Shown in pieces: positions 1 to 10,012 of a stretch of DNA of 10,012 nt. The position numbers and the translations under genes were made by a program. Source of the stretch: an uncultured Candidatus Saccharibacteria bacterium (lineage in GTDB: Bacteria; Patescibacteriota; Saccharimonadia; Saccharimonadales; Saccharimonadaceae); the NCBI GenBank assembly GCA_937990205.1, contig CALKRO010000006.1, positions 1 to 10,012 on the forward strand. The letters are read 5' to 3'. The notes below the pieces were generated by a model, which worked only from the letters and a program-made list of their open reading frames with translations, did not search any database and was not told where the DNA came from. The stretch's first letter is position 1, and each line of letters opens with the position of its first letter.

Positions 1-32
1 AGTAAAATGGCTCAAGAATGACTATTACTTCA

Positions 33-61
33 TTGACAAAATAAGAATTTTAATGTATAAT
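33..61 (+). promoter_or_regulatory. Consensus sigma-70-type promoter
   Basis: A perfect -35 hexamer TTGACA (33-38) and a perfect -10 hexamer TATAAT (56-61) are separated by 17 bp, which is the ideal spacing. Transcription should start near position 68. The only gene downstream on this strand is the membrane protein at 195, so the promoter implies a 5' leader of about 127 nt. Positions 1-32 hold nothing recognisable. Confidence 0.85.
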
Positions 62-67
62 ATGTAG

Positions 68-194
68 ATATTATTATATAAATTCACTTACTGATTTATA
101 TAAAATTGCACCTTGAAAGGAGGAAAAATATTATAAAGTAATAGGTGCATCTTGTTTCTAATTCATTTTTAATTTTTACATAAGGGAGGGAAGT
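68..194 (+). promoter_or_regulatory. Structured 5' leader with two hairpins, one enclosing a perfect Shine-Dalgarno
   Basis: Two consecutive inverted repeats follow the predicted start of transcription. The first has perfect 10-bp arms, TTATATAAAT (74-83) and ATTTATATAA (94-103), around a 10-nt loop. The second has 7-bp arms, TGCACCT (107-113) and AGGTGCA (143-149). Its 29-nt loop contains AAAGGAGG (116-123), a full complement of the 16S rRNA tail. No ATG, GTG or TTG reading frame of useful length follows that site; only an ATT codon at 130 followed by two codons and a stop. The real gene at 195 has its own SD, GGGAGGG (184-190). The element could be a regulatory leader or a small RNA ending in the T-rich stretch around 155-178. 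It matches no riboswitch class that I recognise. Confidence 0.5.
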
Positions 195-752
195 ATGATA
201 GAAATTGACGAATTTAAGAATTTAAGGAAGATACAATACGAGGAAGAAAAAACTCAGGCCGAAAAGCTGAAGGAGCAGCTCGATCTTTTCGACGCATCCA
301 ACTTACTCAGAATTTTTGGTACATTGATCCTTATGGCAATCAATCTTCTTTATCGAGATAGTTTTTGCTTCATGATGCTAACTATGGGCTCAATTCTAAT
401 GGCCGCCATTTCGGTATTATTGCTTGATCGATTGCCAGAAAAAGACTTTAAATGGGCTCATGACCCAGAGGTTGATGGTAATTATTACTATGCAAATCTT
501 ACCACTATGGTAACTTTATTTGCTGTAGCTGGATTTGAGGTTTGGACTACTTCAAGATTTGCGATGACGATTATTTTCTTCGGTGCTGTTATTTTTGCAA
601 TGGGCTATTTTCATATGGTTTTTCACGCATCAAATCAGTTCATAAGAAAATGGGCTACCACAATGCGTATCCTGAATTTAACGTTCATTGTTTTAATTGC
701 CGCGTCGATACCTGTTTGTGTGCTATTCCTAATTTTTAGTAATTTTTCCTAA
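195..752 (+). CDS. Predicted five-helix membrane protein, unknown function
   Basis: I do not recognise this 185-residue protein. The N-terminus (about residues 1-33) is highly charged, rich in Glu and Lys, and probably helical or coiled-coil. It is followed by about five hydrophobic segments, near residues 36-53, 57-78, 101-118, 122-143 and 158-181. There is no signal peptide, no lipobox and no catalytic motif. Between helices 2 and 3 lies a short acidic/aromatic stretch (WAHDPEVDGNYYYAN, 87-101). The start is fixed by a strong SD, GGGAGGG, 4 nt upstream. The gene stands alone: it has its own consensus promoter and structured leader, and a strong terminator directly after the stop. That arrangement suggests a well-expressed, individually regulated membrane protein. 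Residue composition and codon use fit the neighbouring Saccharibacteria-like genes. The reading frame is secure, but the function is unknown. Confidence 0.8.
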   Translation: MIEIDEFKNLRKIQYEEEKTQAEKLKEQLDLFDASNLLRIFGTLILMAINLLYRDSFCFMMLTMGSILMAAISVLLLDRLPEKDFKWAHDPEVDGNYYYANLTTMVTLFAVAGFEVWTTSRFAMTIIFFGAVIFAMGYFHMVFHASNQFIRKWATTMRILNLTFIVLIAASIPVCVLFLIFSNFS

Positions 753-755
753 CTT

Positions 756-785
756 AAAATACCCCGAATCTGGGGTATTTTTTTC
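756..785. terminator. Rho-independent terminator, probably bidirectional
   Basis: A perfect 10-bp stem, AAAATACCCC (756-765) with GGGGTATTTT (772-781), encloses the 6-nt loop GAATCT. It runs into a T-tract on the plus strand (778-784). It sits 4 nt after the stop of the 195-752 gene and 4 nt before the minus-strand stop at 789. The A-rich 5' arm gives a shorter T-tract on the minus strand, so the hairpin can serve both convergent genes, better for the plus strand. Confidence 0.9.
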
Positions 786-788
786 TGC

Positions 789-2276
789 TTAAATTCCTTT
801 GGTTCTGGCTTCGTAGGAAATCTGTTCTTGTTGCTCGTTTTGATAATCAATTTTTCCCGACAAGAACAGTTGATCAAACAATTCAATGTCATCGATGTAA
901 TCTTCGATATGTTTCCAAACTCGATTCGCCCCGTTGTAGTATGCTAAATCTTTATTGTTTGGTAGTTCACCCGTTCCACGAAAACAGCGCTGCACCGCAT
1001 TGAAAACTGGCTCAATTTTACCGCCCGTTAATTCACGCAATTTACATTGAATATCATAAACTTCACGAAAATTCTTACCTTTAAAATTAGCTAAACCAAT
1101 ATTGATATAATGATCGATTCCCGAATCTTCATATTTGCCATTAATGGCTTGCTCCACCGCTTTCGCTACCCCCTCATCGAATTCTTCGTTATTTGGAAAA
1201 CCGGTCGAGAATGCCTCTACTTCATGATCCACATAGGGAACTGCACGCAGTACGTGGGTTCCCAGTTCATGCACGATTAGACCGCGAGCCCGCTTGGCAC
1301 TATAAGTTTTGTCTTCTGGAAAATAAATCCGGCGTTCCTCATGGTCTGCCGAAGCGTTGGTTGCCCCAGCTTTGATTTCTGCACGATACGGATTGCTACC
1401 ATCCTCATTTAACTCTTCTTCAATAATTTCATTAACAATATTTACCATTTCTTGTGAGCTAAATTTTTCTTGGTCTTCTGGAATATGTTGCAAGAAACTA
1501 CCAAAAAATTCGTTTGTCATTTCCGCGAAACGTTCAATGGTTTCTGGCTTCGGCTTAAATCTTTCGCTTCTGGTTTCTGGCATTGGGCCAATTTTATCTA
1601 ATAGTTCAGCAAAATTTTGTTTTTGCTCTTCGGTCAAATCCTGCGCCTTAATCTGGTCAATCTTTTCATTTAGTAGTGCGTAAAAAGTCCCTTCGTCTGG
1701 CTTGCCATAAAGTGCCTCATTGGCCTCTTTGTGATGCTCCGCCGCGAGCTTTTTCGTTTCTGGTTGTGTGACTGTATTGTAAGCTAAATTCGCTACCAAG
1801 AAATCGTTTTTCTTAAAGCAGTCATCGGCCAAATATTCCAACAATCTAAGTTTTCCACTGGATAATTCTGCGCTTTCAAGTTCCGCTTTTGCTTTTTTTA
1901 GGCTATTCAAATTATTTTCAATTTCTTGCTTATCCAAATTTCCGTATTCATAGTTCGGATGAACCAAATCTGGATTATTTAAAAATTCTTCCTTCGCTTC
2001 TTTGGCATTAGTCGGATTTAGGCGTTCATAAACCGTCAGATCTGCACTGGCAATTAATTCCGAAATTTCATCTTCTTTCAATTTTTCTGCTGTGTTTTCA
2101 GGATTATTAAAAACAGATTCTCTTGTCGTCTCAATTTTATTTTCCGGGTTCGCCTGCTCAAATTTTTCGCGTGCTAATTCTGGATTAAATTGATTTTCAA
2201 GATTGGTTAATTTTTTAAAAGGTTTTTCTTCCTGACCCCTATTTTCAATTCGATTAAAATTTGGAAATTCCGCCAT
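789..2276 (-). CDS. DUF1704/MATCAP-family HExxxH metallopeptidase
   Basis: This 495-residue protein carries the hallmark of the DUF1704 family, related to the eukaryotic MATCAP tubulin tyrosine carboxypeptidases. The zinc motif is HELGTH (336-341), an HExxxH rather than the usual HExxH, in the context IVHELGTHVLR. A downstream DEGVAKAVE (367-375) probably supplies the third, glutamate ligand and corresponds to the family's QEGLA motif. C-terminal RCFRG (430-434) and DLAYYNGANRVW (443-454) also fit the family. Residues 1-300 are charged, mostly helical, and have no signal peptide or membrane segment, so the protein should be cytoplasmic. The family acts as C-terminal peptidases in eukaryotes; the bacterial substrate is unknown. 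The start is supported by GGAG (2281-2284, minus strand) 4 nt upstream. It is divergent from the pilin operon with 65 bp between starts. Family membership is fairly sure, the reaction is inferred. Confidence 0.82.
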   Translation of the reverse strand: MAEFPNFNRIENRGQEEKPFKKLTNLENQFNPELAREKFEQANPENKIETTRESVFNNPENTAEKLKEDEISELIASADLTVYERLNPTNAKEAKEEFLNNPDLVHPNYEYGNLDKQEIENNLNSLKKAKAELESAELSSGKLRLLEYLADDCFKKNDFLVANLAYNTVTQPETKKLAAEHHKEANEALYGKPDEGTFYALLNEKIDQIKAQDLTEEQKQNFAELLDKIGPMPETRSERFKPKPETIERFAEMTNEFFGSFLQHIPEDQEKFSSQEMVNIVNEIIEEELNEDGSNPYRAEIKAGATNASADHEERRIYFPEDKTYSAKRARGLIVHELGTHVLRAVPYVDHEVEAFSTGFPNNEEFDEGVAKAVEQAINGKYEDSGIDHYINIGLANFKGKNFREVYDIQCKLRELTGGKIEPVFNAVQRCFRGTGELPNNKDLAYYNGANRVWKHIEDYIDDIELFDQLFLSGKIDYQNEQQEQISYEARTKGI

Positions 2277-2312
2277 AAAGCTCCAGGTTAATTTAGTATT
2301 TTTCTTTTATAT

Positions 2313-2318
2313 ATTATA
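2313..2318 (-). promoter_or_regulatory. Minus-strand -10 element for the metallopeptidase gene
   Basis: The minus strand reads TATAAT across 2318-2313. This predicts a start near 2306 and a leader of about 30 nt that contains the SD GGAG before the ATG at 2276. No good -35 is visible at 17 bp (AACTAA), so the call rests on the -10 and the divergent layout. Confidence 0.5.
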
Positions 2319-2326
2319 ACCTCTTA

Positions 2327-2341
2327 TGCTATAATTTAGTT
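2327..2341 (+). promoter_or_regulatory. Extended -10 promoter giving a leaderless pilin mRNA
   Basis: TG at 2327-2328, one base, then TATAAT (2330-2335) form a perfect extended -10. The -35 region is poor (TTATAT), as is usual for extended -10 promoters. With 6-7 nt from the -10 to the start of transcription, the first transcribed base falls at 2342-2343, which is the ATG itself. No SD lies in the preceding bases. The first pilin gene is therefore predicted to have a leaderless transcript. Confidence 0.65.
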
Positions 2342-3355
2342 ATGAAAAAGAAAACTTGGTGGAGGTCAGGCTTTACGATTATTGAGGTAACGCTTGTGTT
2401 GGCGATTACTGGTCTGCTCGTGGTTTCCGTCATGGGTTTTCTTTCCGGCAATATTAATAATCGCCGTTACATCGATTCTTATAATGAACTTTCTGCTACG
2501 CTTAAGTCGGTCTATTCTTCGGTAATTAATGTAAAAAATCCTCGTGAAGCCGATGAGGGCAGTAGTATTTATTGCACGCTTAATACTATGTGGAATGAAA
2601 ATGGTGGGTTAGTTTCTAACTCTACCTCGGACAATTTTCCAGGACGTACTCGCTGTGCGGTCTATGGTAAATTAGTGACTTTTGGCGAGACCAATCCTGA
2701 GACTAATCAGCCTGATCATAATGTCCATATTTATGATGTAATTGGTCATATTTATACCCAAAATCTCGATATTGAAAACGCCTCTGGTGATAACGCTCTG
2801 GTTTCTTTAAGAAGCATCGGTGCCAATGTGGTTACCATGAAAAGTGAAGCTAATACTTGTCGTATGACTACCGCGGGGAATCACGATGTTTATGAGCCAC
2901 TCTGGCAAGCCCGTATTGAGAATACCGAAAATCATGATCCGTTCGTTGGGGCTTTTTTGGTTACCCGCTCACCAATTTCTGGTACTGTCCACACCTATAT
3001 TTATGACGAAAAAGGCAAAACTTTTAACATTAATCAATTCATGCGAAAAGTGAATAGTGAATATGTCGGTAATGGTAGCTGTGAATATGGTGGTATTGGT
3101 TCCGTCACTAGCGTGGTAGCTGATGCTGGTCTTTATCCTGCCTTTGGCACTCTGAACCGCTCTGAATCTAAAGGCCTTTATCTCGAAAATACCAAACTTC
3201 AGAATAAAAAAGATCTTGATATTTGCGTTGGTTCGGAAAATCATTCTTTGAACAGTATCGGTCGCCGTGCTATTCGCATTCATGCCGATGGTAGTAATTC
3301 TACAGCTGTTGAATTGATTGATATTGATAGTGAGGAAAATCCATGTCGAAGTTAA
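2342..3355 (+). CDS. Prepilin-like protein, minor pilin (FimU/GspH position)
   Basis: This 337-residue secreted pilin-like protein has a class III leader: short basic leader MKKKTWWRSG, cleavage after Gly10, then FTIIEVTL with the conserved Glu at +5 (Glu15). A hydrophobic helix follows to about residue 35. The prepilin peptidase would cut and methylate Phe11, and the helix packs into the pilus core. The remainder is a globular extracellular domain with six Cys (78, 105, 173, 247, 295, 335), possibly disulfide-bonded. The C-terminal stretch SIGRRAIRIHADGSN (305-319) is faintly like the end of GspH/FimT proteins. No SD precedes the ATG; the 10-residue leader and the promoter position both fix this start. 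It is first of four co-directional pilin genes and overlaps the next by 13 nt. It is longer than a typical GspH, so the assignment to that slot rests mainly on gene order. Confidence 0.85.
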   Translation: MKKKTWWRSGFTIIEVTLVLAITGLLVVSVMGFLSGNINNRRYIDSYNELSATLKSVYSSVINVKNPREADEGSSIYCTLNTMWNENGGLVSNSTSDNFPGRTRCAVYGKLVTFGETNPETNQPDHNVHIYDVIGHIYTQNLDIENASGDNALVSLRSIGANVVTMKSEANTCRMTTAGNHDVYEPLWQARIENTENHDPFVGAFLVTRSPISGTVHTYIYDEKGKTFNINQFMRKVNSEYVGNGSCEYGGIGSVTSVVADAGLYPAFGTLNRSESKGLYLENTKLQNKKDLDICVGSENHSLNSIGRRAIRIHADGSNSTAVELIDIDSEENPCRS

Positions 3356-4215
3356 AGCCTTTTATTAGTCGTCGTGGTGACACTATTATTGAAGTAACTT
3401 TTTGTTTTGTAGTTTTTATTTTAGTCTCCGCCATTTCGGTTTCCATGATGAATCGTAGTTACGCAAAAATCCAAAATTCCTTGCAAATTACCACGGTGCG
3501 TAATGAAATTGATGCTCAAGCTGAAGCTCTGCGTTTTATTCATGAGTCCTATATTTCTGAGCGTGCTTTGGTTAAAACTAGCGGCCAGGACGACTCTGGC
3601 AAATGGCAGGAATATCGTGCGATTTGGGATCGCTTGACTAGCTTCAATAATGGGATGTCGAATAGCCCAACTGAAATTTCTAAATTTGAAGCCAATAAGT
3701 GCTCTGAATATTATGATAAAAATAATATTGTCGGTGATAATCATAATATCTTTACCGATAAAGCTTTTATTTTAAATACTCGTAAGCTCAAAGCTTCCGA
3801 TCCAGAAAATACTATTCTTTCTGCCAAGGATCATCCAGAAATTTTTCAAGAATCTCCACTTTCGCCTCGCCTAGTTTTTTCCTCTACCAATACCGCCGGT
3901 ACTTCGAACGGGGAAGATACCGAAACCACCAACCTTAATGAAATTAATGACGGTACTAATTACAAAACCACTCCAGTTTTTAATAACCTCTATCGTGCCG
4001 AAGGTATTTGGATTGTCGCCGTTCGTGACTTTACTAATGTTCCGTCCAGTGCGCACTTTGATGCTAAATATCGCGAAGATATGGACAAAAATTACCCTCC
4101 AGAATTTTACGATTTTCATATTCGTACCTGTTGGTATGGTCCAGGAGAAACCGTCCCGACCACCATTGGTACCATTATTCGTTTATATAATCCAGACTAC
4201 ATGAAGAGAGGTTAG
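3343..4215 (+). CDS. Prepilin-like protein, minor pilin (PilV/GspI position), with Asp at +1
   Basis: This 290-residue pilin-like protein has the leader MSKLKPFISRRG, then DTIIEVTF. The processing site Gly12|Asp13 has Glu17 at +5, but Asp replaces the usual Phe at +1. The hydrophobic segment spans about residues 15-36 and is followed by a helical stretch with Gln and Ala (44-68), as in PilV-type proteins. The globular part has only two Cys outside the membrane segment, 120 and 263, which may pair. The C-terminus includes RTCWYGPG (261-268) and TIGTIIRLY (274-282). The SD GAGGA (3332-3336) lies inside the previous gene, 6 nt before the ATG, and the two genes overlap by 13 nt, which suggests translational coupling. 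The pilin call is secure; the PilV/GspI role comes from its place between a GspH-like and a GspJ-like gene. Confidence 0.85.
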   Translation: MSKLKPFISRRGDTIIEVTFCFVVFILVSAISVSMMNRSYAKIQNSLQITTVRNEIDAQAEALRFIHESYISERALVKTSGQDDSGKWQEYRAIWDRLTSFNNGMSNSPTEISKFEANKCSEYYDKNNIVGDNHNIFTDKAFILNTRKLKASDPENTILSAKDHPEIFQESPLSPRLVFSSTNTAGTSNGEDTETTNLNEINDGTNYKTTPVFNNLYRAEGIWIVAVRDFTNVPSSAHFDAKYREDMDKNYPPEFYDFHIRTCWYGPGETVPTTIGTIIRLYNPDYMKRG

Positions 4216-4223
4216 ATTAATTT

Positions 4224-5141
4224 ATGCGTCAAAAAACTATACGATCAAAAACCAATAATCAAACCCCTTCTGGCTTTACTATTATCGAAGTGACTCTCTC
4301 CTTGATGTTTATTTCAATTCTACTACTTTCGGTAATTTTTGTCGCAGTACATCTTTCCACCATCTACCAAAAGGGGAATACTATGAACGCAATTAATTCT
4401 ACTTCACGCCTACTTGTGGATGATTTTCAACGTGGAATTGCTACAGCTCCCGCCCGCTCTCTCTCTGATATTTGTCGTGTCGAGTATGCCTCAAATACTA
4501 ATGAAATGAATAAATGCTTACAGGATCAAGCGAGAAAATATGTTTATCAGCAAAATTATGGCACTATCAAGGCTAAACAAACTGGCAAACTGCTCGAGAG
4601 TGTGCCGCTTTCTGGCGTCTTCTGTTCTGGACGTTTCACCTATCTCTGGAATACTGGTTATGTCTTAAATTCCACGGATTACGAAATTATGAGCGGTAGT
4701 CGCGCCACTTTCAGTAATGGCGACACGGAAATTGACGATTATCGTTTAATTAAAATTGAAGATTCTGATCGTGCTATTTGTCGTTCTCATATGGAAGCTG
4801 CCGCTAATAATAATCGTGTTTATCAAGTGGCCGACATCGCCCCAACTTATAAGCTCACTGGCGCTGAATATAAAGAGGTCATGAAAAAGAATAACGAAGA
4901 TATTGCGCTGTATGATTTTACCATCTTCGCGCCAACCGAACATGCGCTCACCATGCAGAATTTTTATAGTGGCACCTTCATTTTGGCTACCTTGCGTGGC
5001 AATGTGGATATCACTGGCACCGGCGAATTTTGCAAGACGCCACCAGAAATGGGCTTGTCTTCTAGCTTTAATTATTGCGCCATCAATAAATTTAATTTTT
5101 CCGCTAGGACATCAGGTCAAAATAGAAAAGGAGAGGAATAA
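4224..5141 (+). CDS. Prepilin-like protein, minor pilin (PilW/GspJ position)
   Basis: This 305-residue pilin-like protein has a 17-residue hydrophilic leader ending in Gly17, then FTIIEVTLS with Glu22 at +5. The hydrophobic helix runs to about residue 45. The helix continues into SRLLVDDFQRG (61-71), which resembles the RLxxDL stretch typical of PilW/GspJ. The globular domain has six Cys (84, 98, 134, 186, 270, 285). Near the end, YSGTFILATLRGNVDI (248-263) and YCAINKFNFS (284-293) look like conserved strands of Saccharibacteria pilins, but this is from memory. The gene starts 8 nt after the previous stop; the SD candidate GAGAGG (4206-4211) is rather far from the ATG (12 nt), so termination-reinitiation may help. 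It ends in TAATG, overlapping the next start by 1 nt. Confidence 0.85.
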   Translation: MRQKTIRSKTNNQTPSGFTIIEVTLSLMFISILLLSVIFVAVHLSTIYQKGNTMNAINSTSRLLVDDFQRGIATAPARSLSDICRVEYASNTNEMNKCLQDQARKYVYQQNYGTIKAKQTGKLLESVPLSGVFCSGRFTYLWNTGYVLNSTDYEIMSGSRATFSNGDTEIDDYRLIKIEDSDRAICRSHMEAAANNNRVYQVADIAPTYKLTGAEYKEVMKKNNEDIALYDFTIFAPTEHALTMQNFYSGTFILATLRGNVDITGTGEFCKTPPEMGLSSSFNYCAINKFNFSARTSGQNRKGEE

Positions 5142-6403
5142 TGAAAAAACTATTAATCACTAAACGCGGCTCTACTTCCATTATTGTGGCAATTTTTGCC
5201 ATGCTTTTATTTAGTATTATTGTGGTTGGTTTTGTGCGTCTCACTCTTTCTGAAGCTGGCCAAACTAGTAACTCTGACCTCTCCAAATCCGCCTACGATT
5301 CTGCACTTGCTGGCGTAGAAGATGCCAAGGTTGCTCTTCTTAAATATCATGAATGTTTGAACCGCTACCAAGAAGGTGGTTCCGATACCAACTGTAAAGA
5401 AATTATCGAAGCCATGCAAAATGGTATCAAAAATCAAGACTGCAACACTGTGGCTAATGTCCTCAGTCGCACCACTGATGAACAAAAAGGTGTCACTATT
5501 CAAGAAGTAAAGAATAAGAATCTTGATCAGGGTCGTGGTGCTGATATGATGCAAGCCTATACCTGTGTAACACTTCAGGAAGACCTTAGTGATTATCGCT
5601 CCTCACTCAGCAGTGAAAATCGTCTCCGTATTGTGCCAATCCGCAGTGACAAAATTAAAGAATTGAAATACGTCAATATCAAGTGGTTCTCTGACACTAA
5701 TTACGCCAAGCTTTTGAGCAACGGTCATCAGTTATCCTGGAGTGAAAACGCCTCTCTTCCATCCGGTCAGTATTCCTTAGTACCACCACTAATCAATGCC
5801 TCATTTTATCAAGCTGACCGTAACTTTAAGATGAGCGACTTGATTACTGCTAGCGGTGATAATTCCACTAACCAAGGAACGATGTATTTAAGACCAAGCA
5901 AGAATGGTACCAATGAAATTCGTGCCAGTGAAGTCTCTCGTACTTTTGATAAGCATAAGAATGAACTTTTCTATGTTAAGTGTCAGGAAGGTAACTTCTT
6001 CTGTTCACTCACTTTTGAAGTGCCAAATACTTTCCATAATTCTAATGATCGTAATACTGGTGCTACTTTCTTGGTGCTATCACTTCCTTATGGCGCACCT
6101 GATACTGATTTTGCTATTTCACTTTACGACGCCAAGCGCAATCCGATTGATTTTACCGGCGTGCAAGCTAAGGTTGACTCGACTGGTCGCGCTAATACCC
6201 TTTATCGCCGTATCGAAGCTCGCGTCGAATTGATTGATAATTATTTCCCATACCCAGAATTCGCCGTTCAGTTAAACGATGATAAAAACAATGTCACCCG
6301 TAAAACTTTCTATACCACCAAAAACTGTTGGTATATGGAAGATGGCGACAAGGATACCTGTCCTGACTATCTGGAAAATGATGACTACGCCAATCCAGAA
6401 TAA
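5141..6403 (+). CDS. PilX/GspK-like minor pilin lacking Glu5
   Basis: This 420-residue protein begins MKKLLITKRG, then STSIIVAIFAMLLF, with a hydrophobic helix to about residue 34. If cleaved after Gly10, position +5 is Ile15 and not Glu. Loss of Glu5 is the hallmark of GspK and some PilX proteins, the pilins at the very tip. The following SAYDSALAGVEDAKVALL (50-67) matches the AFxAAEAGLExA pattern of the PilX N-terminal domain. A large extracellular region follows with eight Cys (72, 85, 101, 142, 281, 288, 396, 407), an LYRRIEARVEL stretch (354-364), and a C-terminal NCWY (395-398) that echoes TCWY in the PilV-like protein. The start overlaps the previous stop (TAATG), with SD AAGGAG 7 nt upstream. 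No terminator follows; the sequence switches to streptococcal type within about 12 nt of the stop. Confidence 0.82.
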   Translation: MKKLLITKRGSTSIIVAIFAMLLFSIIVVGFVRLTLSEAGQTSNSDLSKSAYDSALAGVEDAKVALLKYHECLNRYQEGGSDTNCKEIIEAMQNGIKNQDCNTVANVLSRTTDEQKGVTIQEVKNKNLDQGRGADMMQAYTCVTLQEDLSDYRSSLSSENRLRIVPIRSDKIKELKYVNIKWFSDTNYAKLLSNGHQLSWSENASLPSGQYSLVPPLINASFYQADRNFKMSDLITASGDNSTNQGTMYLRPSKNGTNEIRASEVSRTFDKHKNELFYVKCQEGNFFCSLTFEVPNTFHNSNDRNTGATFLVLSLPYGAPDTDFAISLYDAKRNPIDFTGVQAKVDSTGRANTLYRRIEARVELIDNYFPYPEFAVQLNDDKNNVTRKTFYTTKNCWYMEDGDKDTCPDYLENDDYANPE

Positions 6404-6415
6404 CCATCTTAGATA
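6404..6415. other. Junction between Saccharibacteria-like and Streptococcus-like sequence
   Basis: The last pilin gene stops at 6403, and a streptococcal-type TetR operator begins at 6416. The 12 bases between hold no terminator, repeat, tRNA, att-like site or transposase. The break could lie anywhere from the end of the pilin gene to the operator. Everything to the left is CPR-like and everything to the right is mitis-group Streptococcus. An assembly chimera is the simplest explanation; a genuine recombination cannot be excluded from this sequence. Confidence 0.6.
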
Positions 6416-6443
6416 TGAATGAACAGAAAATAAAATTCATTCA
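6416..6443. promoter_or_regulatory. TetR operator copy 1, upstream of tetR
   Basis: TGAATGAA (6416-6423), 12 bp, TTCATTCA (6436-6443). The same palindrome with the same spacing recurs at 7052 and 7155. A -10-like TAAAAT (6431-6436) lies inside it, but no convincing -35 is found at 16-18 bp upstream, where the sequence crosses the junction. Placement just before tetR implies autoregulation. Confidence 0.8.
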
Positions 6444-6458
6444 GGGCAGGAGAGAGTC

Positions 6459-7025
6459 ATGGACAAAAAAGCTGAATTATTGGCTGAGGCTAGGCAGGTG
6501 TTTGCTGAGAAAGGCTATAAAAAGACGAATATTTCAGATATTACCAAGCGTGCCGGCATGGCTGTTGGCTCCTTTTATAAGTATTATGACTCCAAAGAAG
6601 CTATTTTTTTAGAGGTCTATGTGGCGGAGAATAACCGCATACGTGAGGAAACCATACAGCGCGTGGATTGGCAAGGTGAACCTGAGGCAGTCGTTGAACA
6701 GCTTTTTGCAGTCACTTTTGAGTTGATCTTGCCTAATAAAATTTTGGCGGAGTGGAGCAAGCCGGGTATTTCTCAGATCTTGCATGACTACTATAATCAA
6801 GATGCTGGCCGCGCGGCCAATGTCTTTCACCAGTTTCTGATTCAGACATTCAGCCAGCGCTTGCAGGAGAAGGGCTTTTCTCAAGAGGAAGTCGCCCAAA
6901 TCATGAAGGCTTACGATTTGATCTACTACATTGACATGCATGTGACAGAGCAGGATTTTCCAGGTTATTTTGAGAGTATCGAGACCTTGGTGAAATATTT
7001 TTTAAAGGGAATTTTTGCTAAATAA
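6459..7025 (+). CDS. TetR/AcrR-family transcriptional regulator
   Basis: This 188-residue protein has a classical N-terminal TetR DNA-binding domain. Helix 1 spans about residues 3-19 (ARQVFAEKGYKKTN), and the helix-turn-helix lies at about 25-44 (ISDITKRAGMAVGSFYKYY), followed by SKEAIF (45-50). Residues 55-188 form a helical ligand-binding and dimerisation domain with no motif that reveals the inducer. The start is set by SD AGGAG (6448-6452), 6 nt before the ATG. Operator-like palindromes lie before the gene and again twice after it, over the promoter of the downstream membrane protein/nrdI operon, so the likely role is to repress itself and that operon. In Streptococcus such regulators often respond to lipophilic compounds or membrane stress, but nothing here tells which. 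The protein is intact. Confidence 0.9.
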   Translation: MDKKAELLAEARQVFAEKGYKKTNISDITKRAGMAVGSFYKYYDSKEAIFLEVYVAENNRIREETIQRVDWQGEPEAVVEQLFAVTFELILPNKILAEWSKPGISQILHDYYNQDAGRAANVFHQFLIQTFSQRLQEKGFSQEEVAQIMKAYDLIYYIDMHVTEQDFPGYFESIETLVKYFLKGIFAK

Positions 7026-7051
7026 GAATTTCCTTTTCTTATAAGATAGCA

Positions 7052-7079
7052 TGAATGAATTTATAAGAATATTCATTCA
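7052..7079. promoter_or_regulatory. TetR operator copy 2, between tetR and the membrane protein gene
   Basis: TGAATGAA (7052-7059), 12 bp, TTCATTCA (7072-7079). The arms extend by one more complementary base pair inward (TGAATGAAT/ATTCATTCA). It lies 27 bp after the tetR stop and 76 bp before copy 3. No strong promoter overlaps it, so it may act with copy 3 by cooperative binding or looping. Confidence 0.78.
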
Positions 7080-7131
7080 ATGAAGGGGGGTGGATTTGTG
7101 TGATATAGAGTCTTAGGTGAAAGTGAATTGG

Positions 7132-7171
7132 AAAAAAATTTTTTTGAAAAACTTTGAATGAATATCATAAT
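7132..7171 (+). promoter_or_regulatory. Promoter of the membrane protein/nrdI operon
   Basis: TTGAAA (7144-7149) and CATAAT (7166-7171), 16 bp apart, form a good promoter for the gene at 7203. The -35 is preceded by an A7T7 tract (7132-7145), likely bent DNA or an UP-like element. The spacer and -10 lie within TetR operator copy 3, so bound repressor would block RNA polymerase. Confidence 0.65.
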
Positions 7172-7186
7172 CTATTCATTCAAATA
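7151..7186. promoter_or_regulatory. TetR operator copy 3, over the -10 of the membrane protein promoter
   Basis: The best of the three palindromes: the core TGAATGAA (7155-7162), 12 bp, TTCATTCA (7175-7182) lies inside longer perfect 12-bp arms, TTTGAATGAATA (7153-7164) and TATTCATTCAAA (7173-7184). It covers the -10 CATAAT and ends about 20 bp before the start codon at 7203. Confidence 0.85.
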
Positions 7187-7202
7187 AGAAAGTGAGGAAA
7201 TA

Positions 7203-7550
7203 ATGATGAAACAAGGTGGAATGCTGTTGAGTGGAAGGACTATTTTGGGGCTTTGCCTAGTTGTGATTGGTCTTTTGATCTTTGCTTATGGTGGGGCGGA
7301 ATTTGGCCTTGGCCTAAGTTTGGGCTTCCAGTCTTTTTTGATTGGTGCTCTTATTTGTATCTTGGTTGGATTACTTGTGATACCAGGCGTGGCGGTAGCT
7401 ATCAAGTTGGTGGTTTTGGTCTTGACGGTGATCAGTATCTTGCTCTATATTCACAGTATGCCTGATTTGGAAATTCTCTTACAACTGATAGCGGATGTGG
7501 CTGTTATAGGCTTTGCTGCTTTTCTGGCAGTGCTTCTTTTGAGAAAGTAG
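7203..7550 (+). CDS. Small four-helix membrane protein, unknown function
   Basis: This 115-residue, very hydrophobic protein has about four membrane segments, near residues 12-30, 43-60, 62-83 and 92-112. The loops are short, there is a Gly-rich turn (GGAEFGLGLSLG, 30-41), and a basic end (RK). It has no signal peptidase site, lipobox or catalytic motif, and I do not recognise the family. The start is ATG 7203, with SD GAGG (7194-7197) and a second in-frame ATG directly after it. It is the first gene of an operon with nrdI, 9 nt between stop and next start, under a promoter covered by a TetR-type operator. Membrane proteins under TetR control are often involved in export or envelope stress, but this one is too small and featureless to assign. 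Confidence 0.82.
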   Translation: MMKQGGMLLSGRTILGLCLVVIGLLIFAYGGAEFGLGLSLGFQSFLIGALICILVGLLVIPGVAVAIKLVVLVLTVISILLYIHSMPDLEILLQLIADVAVIGFAAFLAVLLLRK

Positions 7551-7559
7551 GAAGAGGAA

Positions 7560-7907
7560 ATGATTATAGTTTATGATTCAGTTACGGGTGTTGGGAAGCG
7601 ATTTGCAGAATCGCTGGGCTATCCGACACAAAGCATCAAGGAAAAGTTGGAAGAACCCTGTATTCTCATTACGCGAAACGCAGGTGCTGGGAAAATTCCC
7701 TGGTCAAGTAAACGCTTCATCAAGAAACACTCAAGCCTGATTAAAGGTTTTGTCAATAATGGAGATTCGGTTAAGCATGGTCGGACCTTCTGCGGGGCGA
7801 CAGCTTTGATTATCGAAAGATATGGACTGCCGCATATCTGCGATATTGACCGAGGTGGCAAGGAAGCGGACATCAAACTTGTGCAGGAATACTTGGCTAA
7901 ACTCTAA
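7560..7907 (+). CDS. nrdI: NrdI-like flavodoxin, short form
   Basis: This 115-residue protein matches the NrdI flavodoxin family. An N-terminal strand and phosphate loop are present, IIVYDSVTGVGKRF (2-15). CILITRNAGAGKIPWSSKRFI (34-54, listed only as landmarks) covers the next strand and the flavin-edge loop. KGFVNNGDSVKHGRTFCGA (62-80) corresponds to the region with the Gly-rich 70s loop and the conserved Phe-Cys, and IIERYGLPHICDID (84-97) ends the fold. NrdI binds FMN and delivers the oxidant that builds the Mn-tyrosyl cofactor in NrdF of class Ib ribonucleotide reductase. Here no nrdE, nrdF or nrdH is nearby. The usual Asn after TG in the phosphate loop is Val11, so flavin binding may differ. 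SD GGAAGAGGA precedes the ATG. Family call good; role in ribonucleotide reduction is inferred. Confidence 0.82.
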   Translation: MIIVYDSVTGVGKRFAESLGYPTQSIKEKLEEPCILITRNAGAGKIPWSSKRFIKKHSSLIKGFVNNGDSVKHGRTFCGATALIIERYGLPHICDIDRGGKEADIKLVQEYLAKL

Positions 7908-7937
7908 GAGCGATTATTTATATGATAAATCTCTAGG

Positions 7938-7968
7938 AAAGGATGGGTGATAATGACTCATCCTTTTT
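7938..7968 (+). terminator. Rho-independent terminator after nrdI
   Basis: An 11-bp stem with one G-T wobble, AAAGGATGGGT (7938-7948) with ACTCATCCTTT (7956-7966), encloses the 7-nt loop GATAATG and runs into a T-tract (7964-7968). It lies 30 nt after the nrdI stop and closes the TetR-controlled operon, so the beta-galactosidase gene has separate transcription. Confidence 0.88.
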
Positions 7969-8047
7969 ATAGGAATGTTCGATAAAGTTTGTTTTTCTCC
8001 TAATTTTAGGAAAAAAGCTCAAAAGTATAAAAAAGGTTCTTGGCTTA

Positions 8048-8076
8048 TTGAGATAAGCTATCTTGTTTTATAAAAT
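8048..8076 (+). promoter_or_regulatory. Promoter of the beta-galactosidase gene
   Basis: TTGAGA (8048-8053) and TAAAAT (8071-8076) are spaced by 17 bp and predict a start near 8083, about 70 nt before the start codon. A shifted reading, TATAAA at 8069, is possible. The stretch from 7969 to 8047 holds no gene; it contains only a weak AT-rich palindrome (CCTAA-TT-TTAGG, 7999-8010). Confidence 0.6.
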
Positions 8077-8080
8077 AGGA

Positions 8081-8133
8081 GGGAAACGATTATAAAAAGT
8101 AAAGCGTTTCCTCGAAAAATGGAAGCGATTACT
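8081..8133. promoter_or_regulatory. Cluster of cre-like (CcpA-type) operators before bgaA
   Basis: Three AARCGNTT cores lie within 53 bp at and just after the predicted start of transcription. GGAAACG (8082-8088) and its inverted copy CGTTTCC (8105-8111) form an imperfect long palindrome. TGGAAGCGATTACT (8120-8133) matches 12 of 14 positions of the cre consensus TGWAARCGYTWNCW and directly repeats the first site. Position downstream of the -10 fits catabolite repression by CcpA or control by a LacI-family sugar regulator. Confidence 0.65.
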
Positions 8134-8153
8134 AAAAAAAGAAGGATGATCCT

Positions 8154-10012
8154 ATGGGAAAGGATCATTGGAATCGAAAGAGAGTTTATAGCATAAGAAA
8201 GTTTTCTATTGGTGTTTGCTCGATAGTTATTGGTACTTGCTTCCTCTTATTTGGAGCAGGTGTGGCAGGAGCAACTCCAGTTTATGCCGAGGAAACAACG
8301 GTGCTGGTTGCTGCAGAAAAGCCCGTTGAGGAAAAGCCCATTGAGGAAGAAGTGATCCAAATGATCGAAGATAGAAAAGTGAATTTTAATCAGAATTGGC
8401 ACTTTAAATTAAACGCTAATGCTAAGGAAGCTGTTCAAGCTGAGACGGATGTCACATCGTGGAAAAAGTTAGACCTGCCCCATGACTGGAGTATCCACTT
8501 TGATTTTGACCATGAATCACCAGCACAAAACGAAGGTGGCCAGCTCAATGGTGGAGATGCTTGGTATCGTAAGCCTCTGAAATTAGATGAAAAAGACCTT
8601 GATAAAAATGTTCGTCTCACATTTGATGGTGTCTACATGGATTCGCAAGTCTTTGTCAATGGCCAGCTGGTCGGGCATTATCCAAATGGCTACAATCAAT
8701 TTTCATACGATATTACTCAATACCTCCACAAAGATGGTCGGGAAAATGTCATCGCTGTGCACGTTGTCAACAAGCAACCAAGCAGCCGTTGGTATTCAGG
8801 GAGCGGGATCTACCGTGATGTGAGTTTGCAAGTGACGGATAAGGTTCATCTTGAGAAAAATGGTACAACTATCCTAACGCCAGAACTTGAGAAGCAACAA
8901 GACGGTAAGGTTGCAACTCATGTGACGAGTAAGGTTGTCAATACAGACGATAAAGACCATGAAATCATAGCGGAGTATCAGATTGTTAGCCGTGGTGGTG
9001 AGGCAGTCACAGACCTTATTCGTACTGCTAGCCGAAAAATAAAAGCCCACGAAAGCAGTACTATCCAGGCAAGCTTAGAAGTAGAAAAACCGGAATTGTG
9101 GACTGTGTTTAAAGACAAGCCTGCCTTGTACGAGTTGGTGACACGGATTTATCGTGATGGGCAATTGGTCGATGCCAAGAAAGACTTGTTTGGTTACCGT
9201 TACTATAACTGGACTCCAAATGAAGGATTCTCTCTCAATGGTCAGAAGGTCAAGTTCCACGGAGTATCCTTGCACCATGACCACGGGGCTCTAGGAGCAG
9301 AAGAAAACTATAAGGCAGAGTATCGTCGCCTCAAGCAAATGAAGGAAATGGGGGTCAACTCGATTCGTACGACCCACAATCCTGCTAGTGAGCAGACTTT
9401 GCAGATTGCGGCGGAGCTTGGTCTGATGGTCCAAGAAGAGGCTTTTGACACTTGGTATGGAGGCAAGAAGCCTTATGATTACGGTCGTTTCTTTGAAAAA
9501 GATGCGACTCACCCAGAAGCTAAAAAGGGTGAAAAATGGTCTGACTATGACCTGCGGACCATGGTTGAAAGAGGCAAAAATAATCCTGCCATCGTTATGT
9601 GGTCAATCGGAAATGAAATCGGTGAAGCAAACGGAGATGCTCATTCGTTAGCGACGGTTAAACGCTTGGTCAAGGTCATCAAGTCAGTTGATAAGACCCG
9701 CTATGTCACGATGGGAGCTGACAAATTCCGCTTTGGTGATGGTAGTGGTGGTCATGAAAAGATCGCGGATGAACTGGATGCAGTTGGCTTTAACTACTCA
9801 GAAGATAATTACAAAGCCTTACGTGCTAAACATCCAAATTGGTTGATTTATGGTTCTGAAACATCTTCAGCTACTCGTACGCGTGGCAGCTATTTCCATC
9901 CAGAGCAAGAATGGGTTGGAAGCAATCAGTCTTGGCGAAACTATGAACAATCGGACTATGGAAATGATCGAGTTGGCTGGGGTAAAACGGCAACAGCTTC
10001 TTGGACTTTTGA
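8154..10012 (+). CDS. bgaA: Secreted GH2 beta-galactosidase BgaA, N-terminal part (runs off window)
   Basis: 619 codons are present without a stop; the pneumococcal protein is over 2,200 residues, so about a quarter is seen. The start follows SD AAGGA (8142-8146). A YSIRK-type signal peptide is clear: YSIRKFSIG (12-20), a hydrophobic core, and likely cleavage at VYA|EE (after 45). A short acidic linker with an EKPxEE repeat (55-64) leads into the sugar-binding and immunoglobulin-like domains (about 75-370) and the TIM barrel. VNSIRTTHNP (401-410) and WSIGNE (483-488) are GH2 signatures. Glu488 is the predicted acid/base and Glu569 in YGSETSSATRTRG (566-578) the nucleophile. Their 81-residue spacing equals that recalled for pneumococcal BgaA (Glu564, Glu645). 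The enzyme removes terminal beta-1,4 galactose from host N-glycans at the cell surface. The whole N-terminus is about 76 residues shorter than the pneumococcal one, in the linker. Confidence 0.95.
   Translation, partial: MGKDHWNRKRVYSIRKFSIGVCSIVIGTCFLLFGAGVAGATPVYAEETTVLVAAEKPVEEKPIEEEVIQMIEDRKVNFNQNWHFKLNANAKEAVQAETDVTSWKKLDLPHDWSIHFDFDHESPAQNEGGQLNGGDAWYRKPLKLDEKDLDKNVRLTFDGVYMDSQVFVNGQLVGHYPNGYNQFSYDITQYLHKDGRENVIAVHVVNKQPSSRWYSGSGIYRDVSLQVTDKVHLEKNGTTILTPELEKQQDGKVATHVTSKVVNTDDKDHEIIAEYQIVSRGGEAVTDLIRTASRKIKAHESSTIQASLEVEKPELWTVFKDKPALYELVTRIYRDGQLVDAKKDLFGYRYYNWTPNEGFSLNGQKVKFHGVSLHHDHGALGAEENYKAEYRRLKQMKEMGVNSIRTTHNPASEQTLQIAAELGLMVQEEAFDTWYGGKKPYDYGRFFEKDATHPEAKKGEKWSDYDLRTMVERGKNNPAIVMWSIGNEIGEANGDAHSLATVKRLVKVIKSVDKTRYVTMGADKFRFGDGSGGHEKIADELDAVGFNYSEDNYKALRAKHPNWLIYGSETSSATRTRGSYFHPEQEWVGSNQSWRNYEQSDYGNDRVGWGKTATASWTF

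Follow-up and report, generated by a model that had tools for sequence, protein, structure and literature searches.

A contig that most likely joins Saccharibacteria and Streptococcus DNA in error at a 21-base shared sequence

The window, meaning the whole stretch of 10,012 nucleotides analysed here, is very probably a chimeric contig, whichever artefact produced it. Judged by its similarity to public genomes, it combines DNA of a Saccharibacteria strain resembling TM7 HOT-351 with DNA of a streptococcus of the Streptococcus cristatus group. The leading route for the join, and a likely one, is a merge during assembly at k=21, and the junction is most likely a data error that needs a flag rather than a gene transfer. 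Left unflagged, the contig would place a surface glycosidase of streptococcal origin, together with the regulator next to it, in a Saccharibacteria genome or, alternatively, TM7 pilins in a Streptococcus, and it would pass for cross-phylum transfer. The features of the window are as follows.

2..6412: Saccharibacteria (TM7 HOT-351-like) part, with a membrane-protein ORF, a minus-strand MATCAP/QEGLA-like ORF and four pilin-like genes
2342..6403: the four pilin-like genes
5141..6403, plus strand: fourth pilin-like gene, PilX-like, 420 amino acids; last complete TM7 gene, 3 residues away from HOT-351 SAG3
6413..6433: junction, 21 bp fitting both sources (16 exact bases, a mismatch to HOT-351 SAG3 at 6429, then 4 exact bases)
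6415..6433, plus strand: first codons (MNEQKI) of a fifth TM7 gene, the rest of which is lost at the join
6434..10012: Streptococcus cristatus-group part, collinear to the window end with loci L002, L003 and L007
6416..6443 (plus strand), 7052..7079 and 7155..7182: three intact operator-like palindromes, TGAATGAA-N12-TTCATTCA, which frame tetR and the small membrane-protein ORF
6459..7025, plus strand: streptococcal TetR-family regulator (PF00440), promoter lost
7203..7550, plus strand: small membrane-protein ORF, 3' of two further operator-like sites
7560..7907, plus strand: NrdI-like flavodoxin (PF07972 above its cut-off, NCBIfam nrdI below its cut-off)
8154..10010, plus strand: BgaA-like GH2 glycosidase with a YSIRK signal, open at the window end and collinear with L002, L003 and L007

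A query of joined pieces against genome contigs returned 20 loci, one from Saccharibacteria (L001, from TM7 HOT-351 SAG3, an oral member of the group with a draft single-amplified genome of about 600 kb) and 19 from Streptococcus. Positions 2–6433 align without gaps to positions 1614–8045 of the SAG3 locus, with 464 mismatches in 6432 columns (92.8% identity). All 19 fetched streptococcal loci align to the window as well, starting at 6413 in 16 of them, at 6411 in one and at 6459 in two. The abrupt switch described in the first-pass annotation is therefore real, and both sources had been named correctly. The two sides come from different organisms, and indeed different phyla, as represented by public relatives that are about 93–95% identical and are distinct from the source strains. 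The tetranucleotide comparison proposed with that description agrees weakly: the summed distance between the halves is 0.30, compared with 0.22 in two within-genome splits. The left half lies nearer TM7 (0.18) than Streptococcus (0.35), and the right half nearer Streptococcus (0.21) than TM7 (0.27).

On the Saccharibacteria side, six TM7 genes were compared with SAG3, and their differences fall mostly at third codon positions. Between the four pilins and their SAG3 counterparts there are just 12, 3, 5 and 3 residue differences, so this part reads as ordinary TM7 sequence of a related strain. The description of four pilin genes holds for the first, which carries a prepilin N-terminal motif scoring just above the NCBIfam cut-off, and for the fourth, whose relatives bear the JGI name PilX; neither Pfam nor NCBIfam gave a match for the second and third, which may be called pilin-like from the reading of their N-termini only. 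The fourth belongs to a 99% cluster of 666 members, with relatives named as Saccharibacteria, and identity falls from 98–99% in its closest relatives to about 63% in the next ones. Adjoining the pilin operon, the minus-strand TM7 ORF at 789–2276 has a MATCAP match (PF08014, E 5.4e-17), and its QEGLA match falls below the cut-off.

The streptococcal side is covered to different extents by its relatives, which include Streptococcus sp. Marseille-P6264 (L002) and six S. cristatus loci (L003–L007 and L019), L007 being strain S22. Identity in the first aligned piece ranges from 82.5 to 95.2% across these seven. Four of them (L004, L005, L006 and L019) match the window only to about 7969, while the alignments of L002, L003 and L007 extend to its last bases, interrupted by small indels and by a single in-frame difference of 201 bp in bgaA. 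This difference, at 8344–8353, consists of 67 codons that are missing from the window relative to the three loci and coincides with a direct repeat of about 10 bp. Either strain variation or another collapse on a short repeat may explain it. S22 is identical to the window across 6413–6526. Relative to known strains, the streptococcal part is mosaic over 6413–7025: tetR differs from Marseille-P6264 at 5 of 567 bases and from S22 at 32 of 567, while its leader is identical to that of S22. The small membrane-protein ORF has no Pfam or NCBIfam match. The palindrome pattern occurs three times in the window, against a mean of 0.00 in shuffled sequences, and is absent from the SAG3 locus. Because two or three such sites were found in all 10 streptococcal loci scanned (10 of the 19), the three palindromes are probably TetR operators.

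Both sources fit the window over 21 bases (ATATGAATGAACAGAAAATAA, 6413–6433), since identity with TM7 stops at 6433 and identity with S22 starts at 6413. The left half of the first palindrome lies inside this junction. SAG3 and S22 share 20 of the 21 bases, in an overlap that ends exactly where each source diverges from the window, and the only base at which they differ there, 6429, is a silent third position of a lysine codon. The join had been placed within about 12 bp of the last pilin stop codon; what we find instead is a 21-bp overlap lying about 10 to 30 bp past that stop. Read with the letters of the window, the left part as far as 6433 shares one 21-mer and no 22-mer with S22. For SAG3 itself the longest word shared with S22 is 16 bases, with none of 17 or more, so that the certain exact match between the two references at the junction, 16 bp, is below k=21. 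This match is the only forward one of at least 14 bp between the SAG3 and S22 loci. Among 2,000,000 random joins of these two loci, none shared 12 bp or more and the maximum was 11 bp, so the join lies on a shared word.

The join removed sequence that the references retain on both sides. In the SAG3 locus, the pilins are followed by a fifth ORF of 284 amino acids (8027–8881) that begins MNEQKIIKQAED, with a TTG 5 bases and an ATG 11 bases past the pilin stop. With this ATG so close behind the stop, no terminator is expected there, and the suggestion that the pilin operon had lost its terminator is unsupported. A search with the fifth gene yielded 125 homologous proteins, with many close metagenomic ones among them; 120 are listed, at 85–94% identity, one of these is named as Candidatus Saccharibacteria, and the first 12 residues are invariant in SAG3 and the nine of these homologues that were aligned. 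The gene was not found in viral_contigs. It was present in one of 174 TM7-genus genomes, that of SAG3, and among 30 pilin loci read for up to 1.5 kb beside each, it occurred only in L025, which is the SAG3 place itself; the gene order past the pilins is thus documented in one genome, a draft single-amplified one. On the streptococcal side, the loss of the tetR -35 element, already suspected in the first-pass annotation, is borne out by a TTGACA or TTGACT in the leaders of all 19 streptococcal loci. The loss in fact extends to both promoter hexamers: a pattern for the pair, which has a 16-base spacer in streptococci, matches nine of nine loci tested and does not match the window, and a promoter scan of 6200–8200 found no site upstream of tetR.

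Elsewhere, the parental loci are uninterrupted, as seen in one TM7 genome (SAG3) and in the 19 streptococcal loci, and neither reference set carries the other half of the window, which answers in part the question of whether both halves match one genome. In the SAG3 genome, a query of 6300–10012 matched only at 6302–6433, so the streptococcal half was not found there; in seven S. cristatus-group genomes, a query of 1–6460 found no TM7 half, with matches in three of the seven, only from 6413 on. The junction was found in none of 174 TM7-genus genomes, where two matched the junction query: SAG3, up to 6433, and another over 30 bases at 87%, which is read as a chance match. Among 247 Streptococcus genomes sampled from a larger group, with the best three candidates scored in each, it was likewise not found; here, 40 genomes matched the 141-base junction query and none of these matches extended left of 6409. 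A search for the TM7 half in 197 Streptococcus genomes (best two or three candidates per genome) gave just 26–40-base matches in six of them, which were read as chance. A 37-base exact junction pattern was absent from viral_contigs, and phages gave no match to the TM7 half. Among plasmids, the streptococcal half gave just three weak Enterococcus TetR matches.

With the parental loci intact, the breakpoint on a short shared word, a TM7 gene cut, the tetR promoter lost and no other carrier found, the evidence favours misassembly between the two readings originally offered, a misassembly and an epibiont-neighbour exchange. De Bruijn graph assemblers can join two intact genomes at a coincidental shared word when coverage is low, and metagenome assemblers usually start from k=21, the default first value in MEGAHIT and metaSPAdes. 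In the proposed route, the 21-bp stretch would be present in both genomes by coincidence, as a TM7 gene start on one side and a tetR operator on the other, and a de Bruijn graph assembler would merge the two genomes there. If the TM7 strain in the sample has A at 6429, as we infer, the two genomes would share exactly one 21-mer and no 22-mer; if depth was low, the real continuation of each genome could drop out, leaving a single path.

Between one S. cristatus locus and 30 loci of the TM7 family, we counted 541 shared twelve-base words, from which about 263,000 such words are expected for a pair of genomes of 0.7 and 2.0 Mb. Extrapolating by a factor of 4 per base, there would be about one shared 21-base word per such genome pair, so co-assembly of many genomes can be expected to produce joins of this kind. 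The twelve-base count was used because the 16-base count rests on only two words, including the junction word itself, and was set aside. A simple check for chimeras follows: locate the overlap that fits both references and compare its length with an assembler k.

That the join was made by software rather than in the laboratory is our inference from these comparisons, and a laboratory chimera, which would look similar to an assembly join, ranks second, as a possible although clearly less probable origin. In this case, the 3' end of a strand from one genome would have primed on a strand of the other at the shared 16–21 bp during multiple displacement amplification (MDA), PCR or library preparation. 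Such a route takes amplification of this sample as an assumption, and the nearest TM7 reference for the window is itself a single-amplified genome. Complementarity of up to 21 bp has been reported at MDA joins (Lasken and Stockwell, PMC1855051). According to the available text of the same study, however, among joins between segments more than 10 kb apart, only about a third had complementarity of at least 2 bp (34.8% of inverted and 27.6% of direct joins), so 16–21 bp would be unusual for an MDA join, and for this reason we place the laboratory chimera behind the assembly merge.

A real transfer at the shared short sequence, with streptococcal DNA entering a Saccharibacteria genome or TM7 DNA entering a streptococcus, is very improbable. 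If true, it would be a direct cross-phylum exchange between an epibiont and its neighbour, and we regard as equally remote its specific form, in which a streptococcal tetR-nrdI-bgaA segment came to lie beside an oral Saccharibacteria pilin operon, or the reverse, via 16–21 bp of coincidental homology. The two sources named both live in the mouth, either side otherwise keeps the gene order of its references, and short-homology joins also arise in living cells through homology-facilitated illegitimate recombination. However, the transfer would have cut a TM7 gene with 120 listed homologues at 85–94% identity and would have removed the tetR promoter, and the junction has no other carrier in 421 genomes. 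Moreover, no close TetR was detected in 295 TM7-family genomes, where 21 weak matches were obtained, none above 43% identity and the best two (34% and 43%) covering part of the protein. No mobile element was found in the window and no integration site at the boundary; as the first-pass annotation had noted, the window contains no tRNA, and its 10 main ORFs encode no integrase or transposase domain by Pfam. In the literature on horizontal gene transfer between Saccharibacteria and Streptococcus, no such transfer is described in the available text of PMC7739484, and a literature search pairing HOT-351 with Saccharibacteria returned nothing.

The assembly merge, which we retain as the preferred reading, can be compared with three known systems. 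In homology-facilitated illegitimate recombination in competent bacteria, one end would likewise rely on a short shared sequence; in contrast to that process, neither a long anchor, nor the other end, nor a second carrier is seen for the window. MDA chimeras are alike in that they join at a short complementary stretch, of up to 21 bp as observed in PMC1855051, but those described in the available text of that study are mostly inversions within one Escherichia coli genome (406 of 475), whereas the window joins two phyla. Finally, although the window was called from public relatives rather than from references or reads of the sample itself, it resembles the interspecies translocation misassembly, a MetaQUAST label, as outlined in the accessible part of PMC10174551: two references each cover part of one contig, and they meet at a sharp breakpoint.
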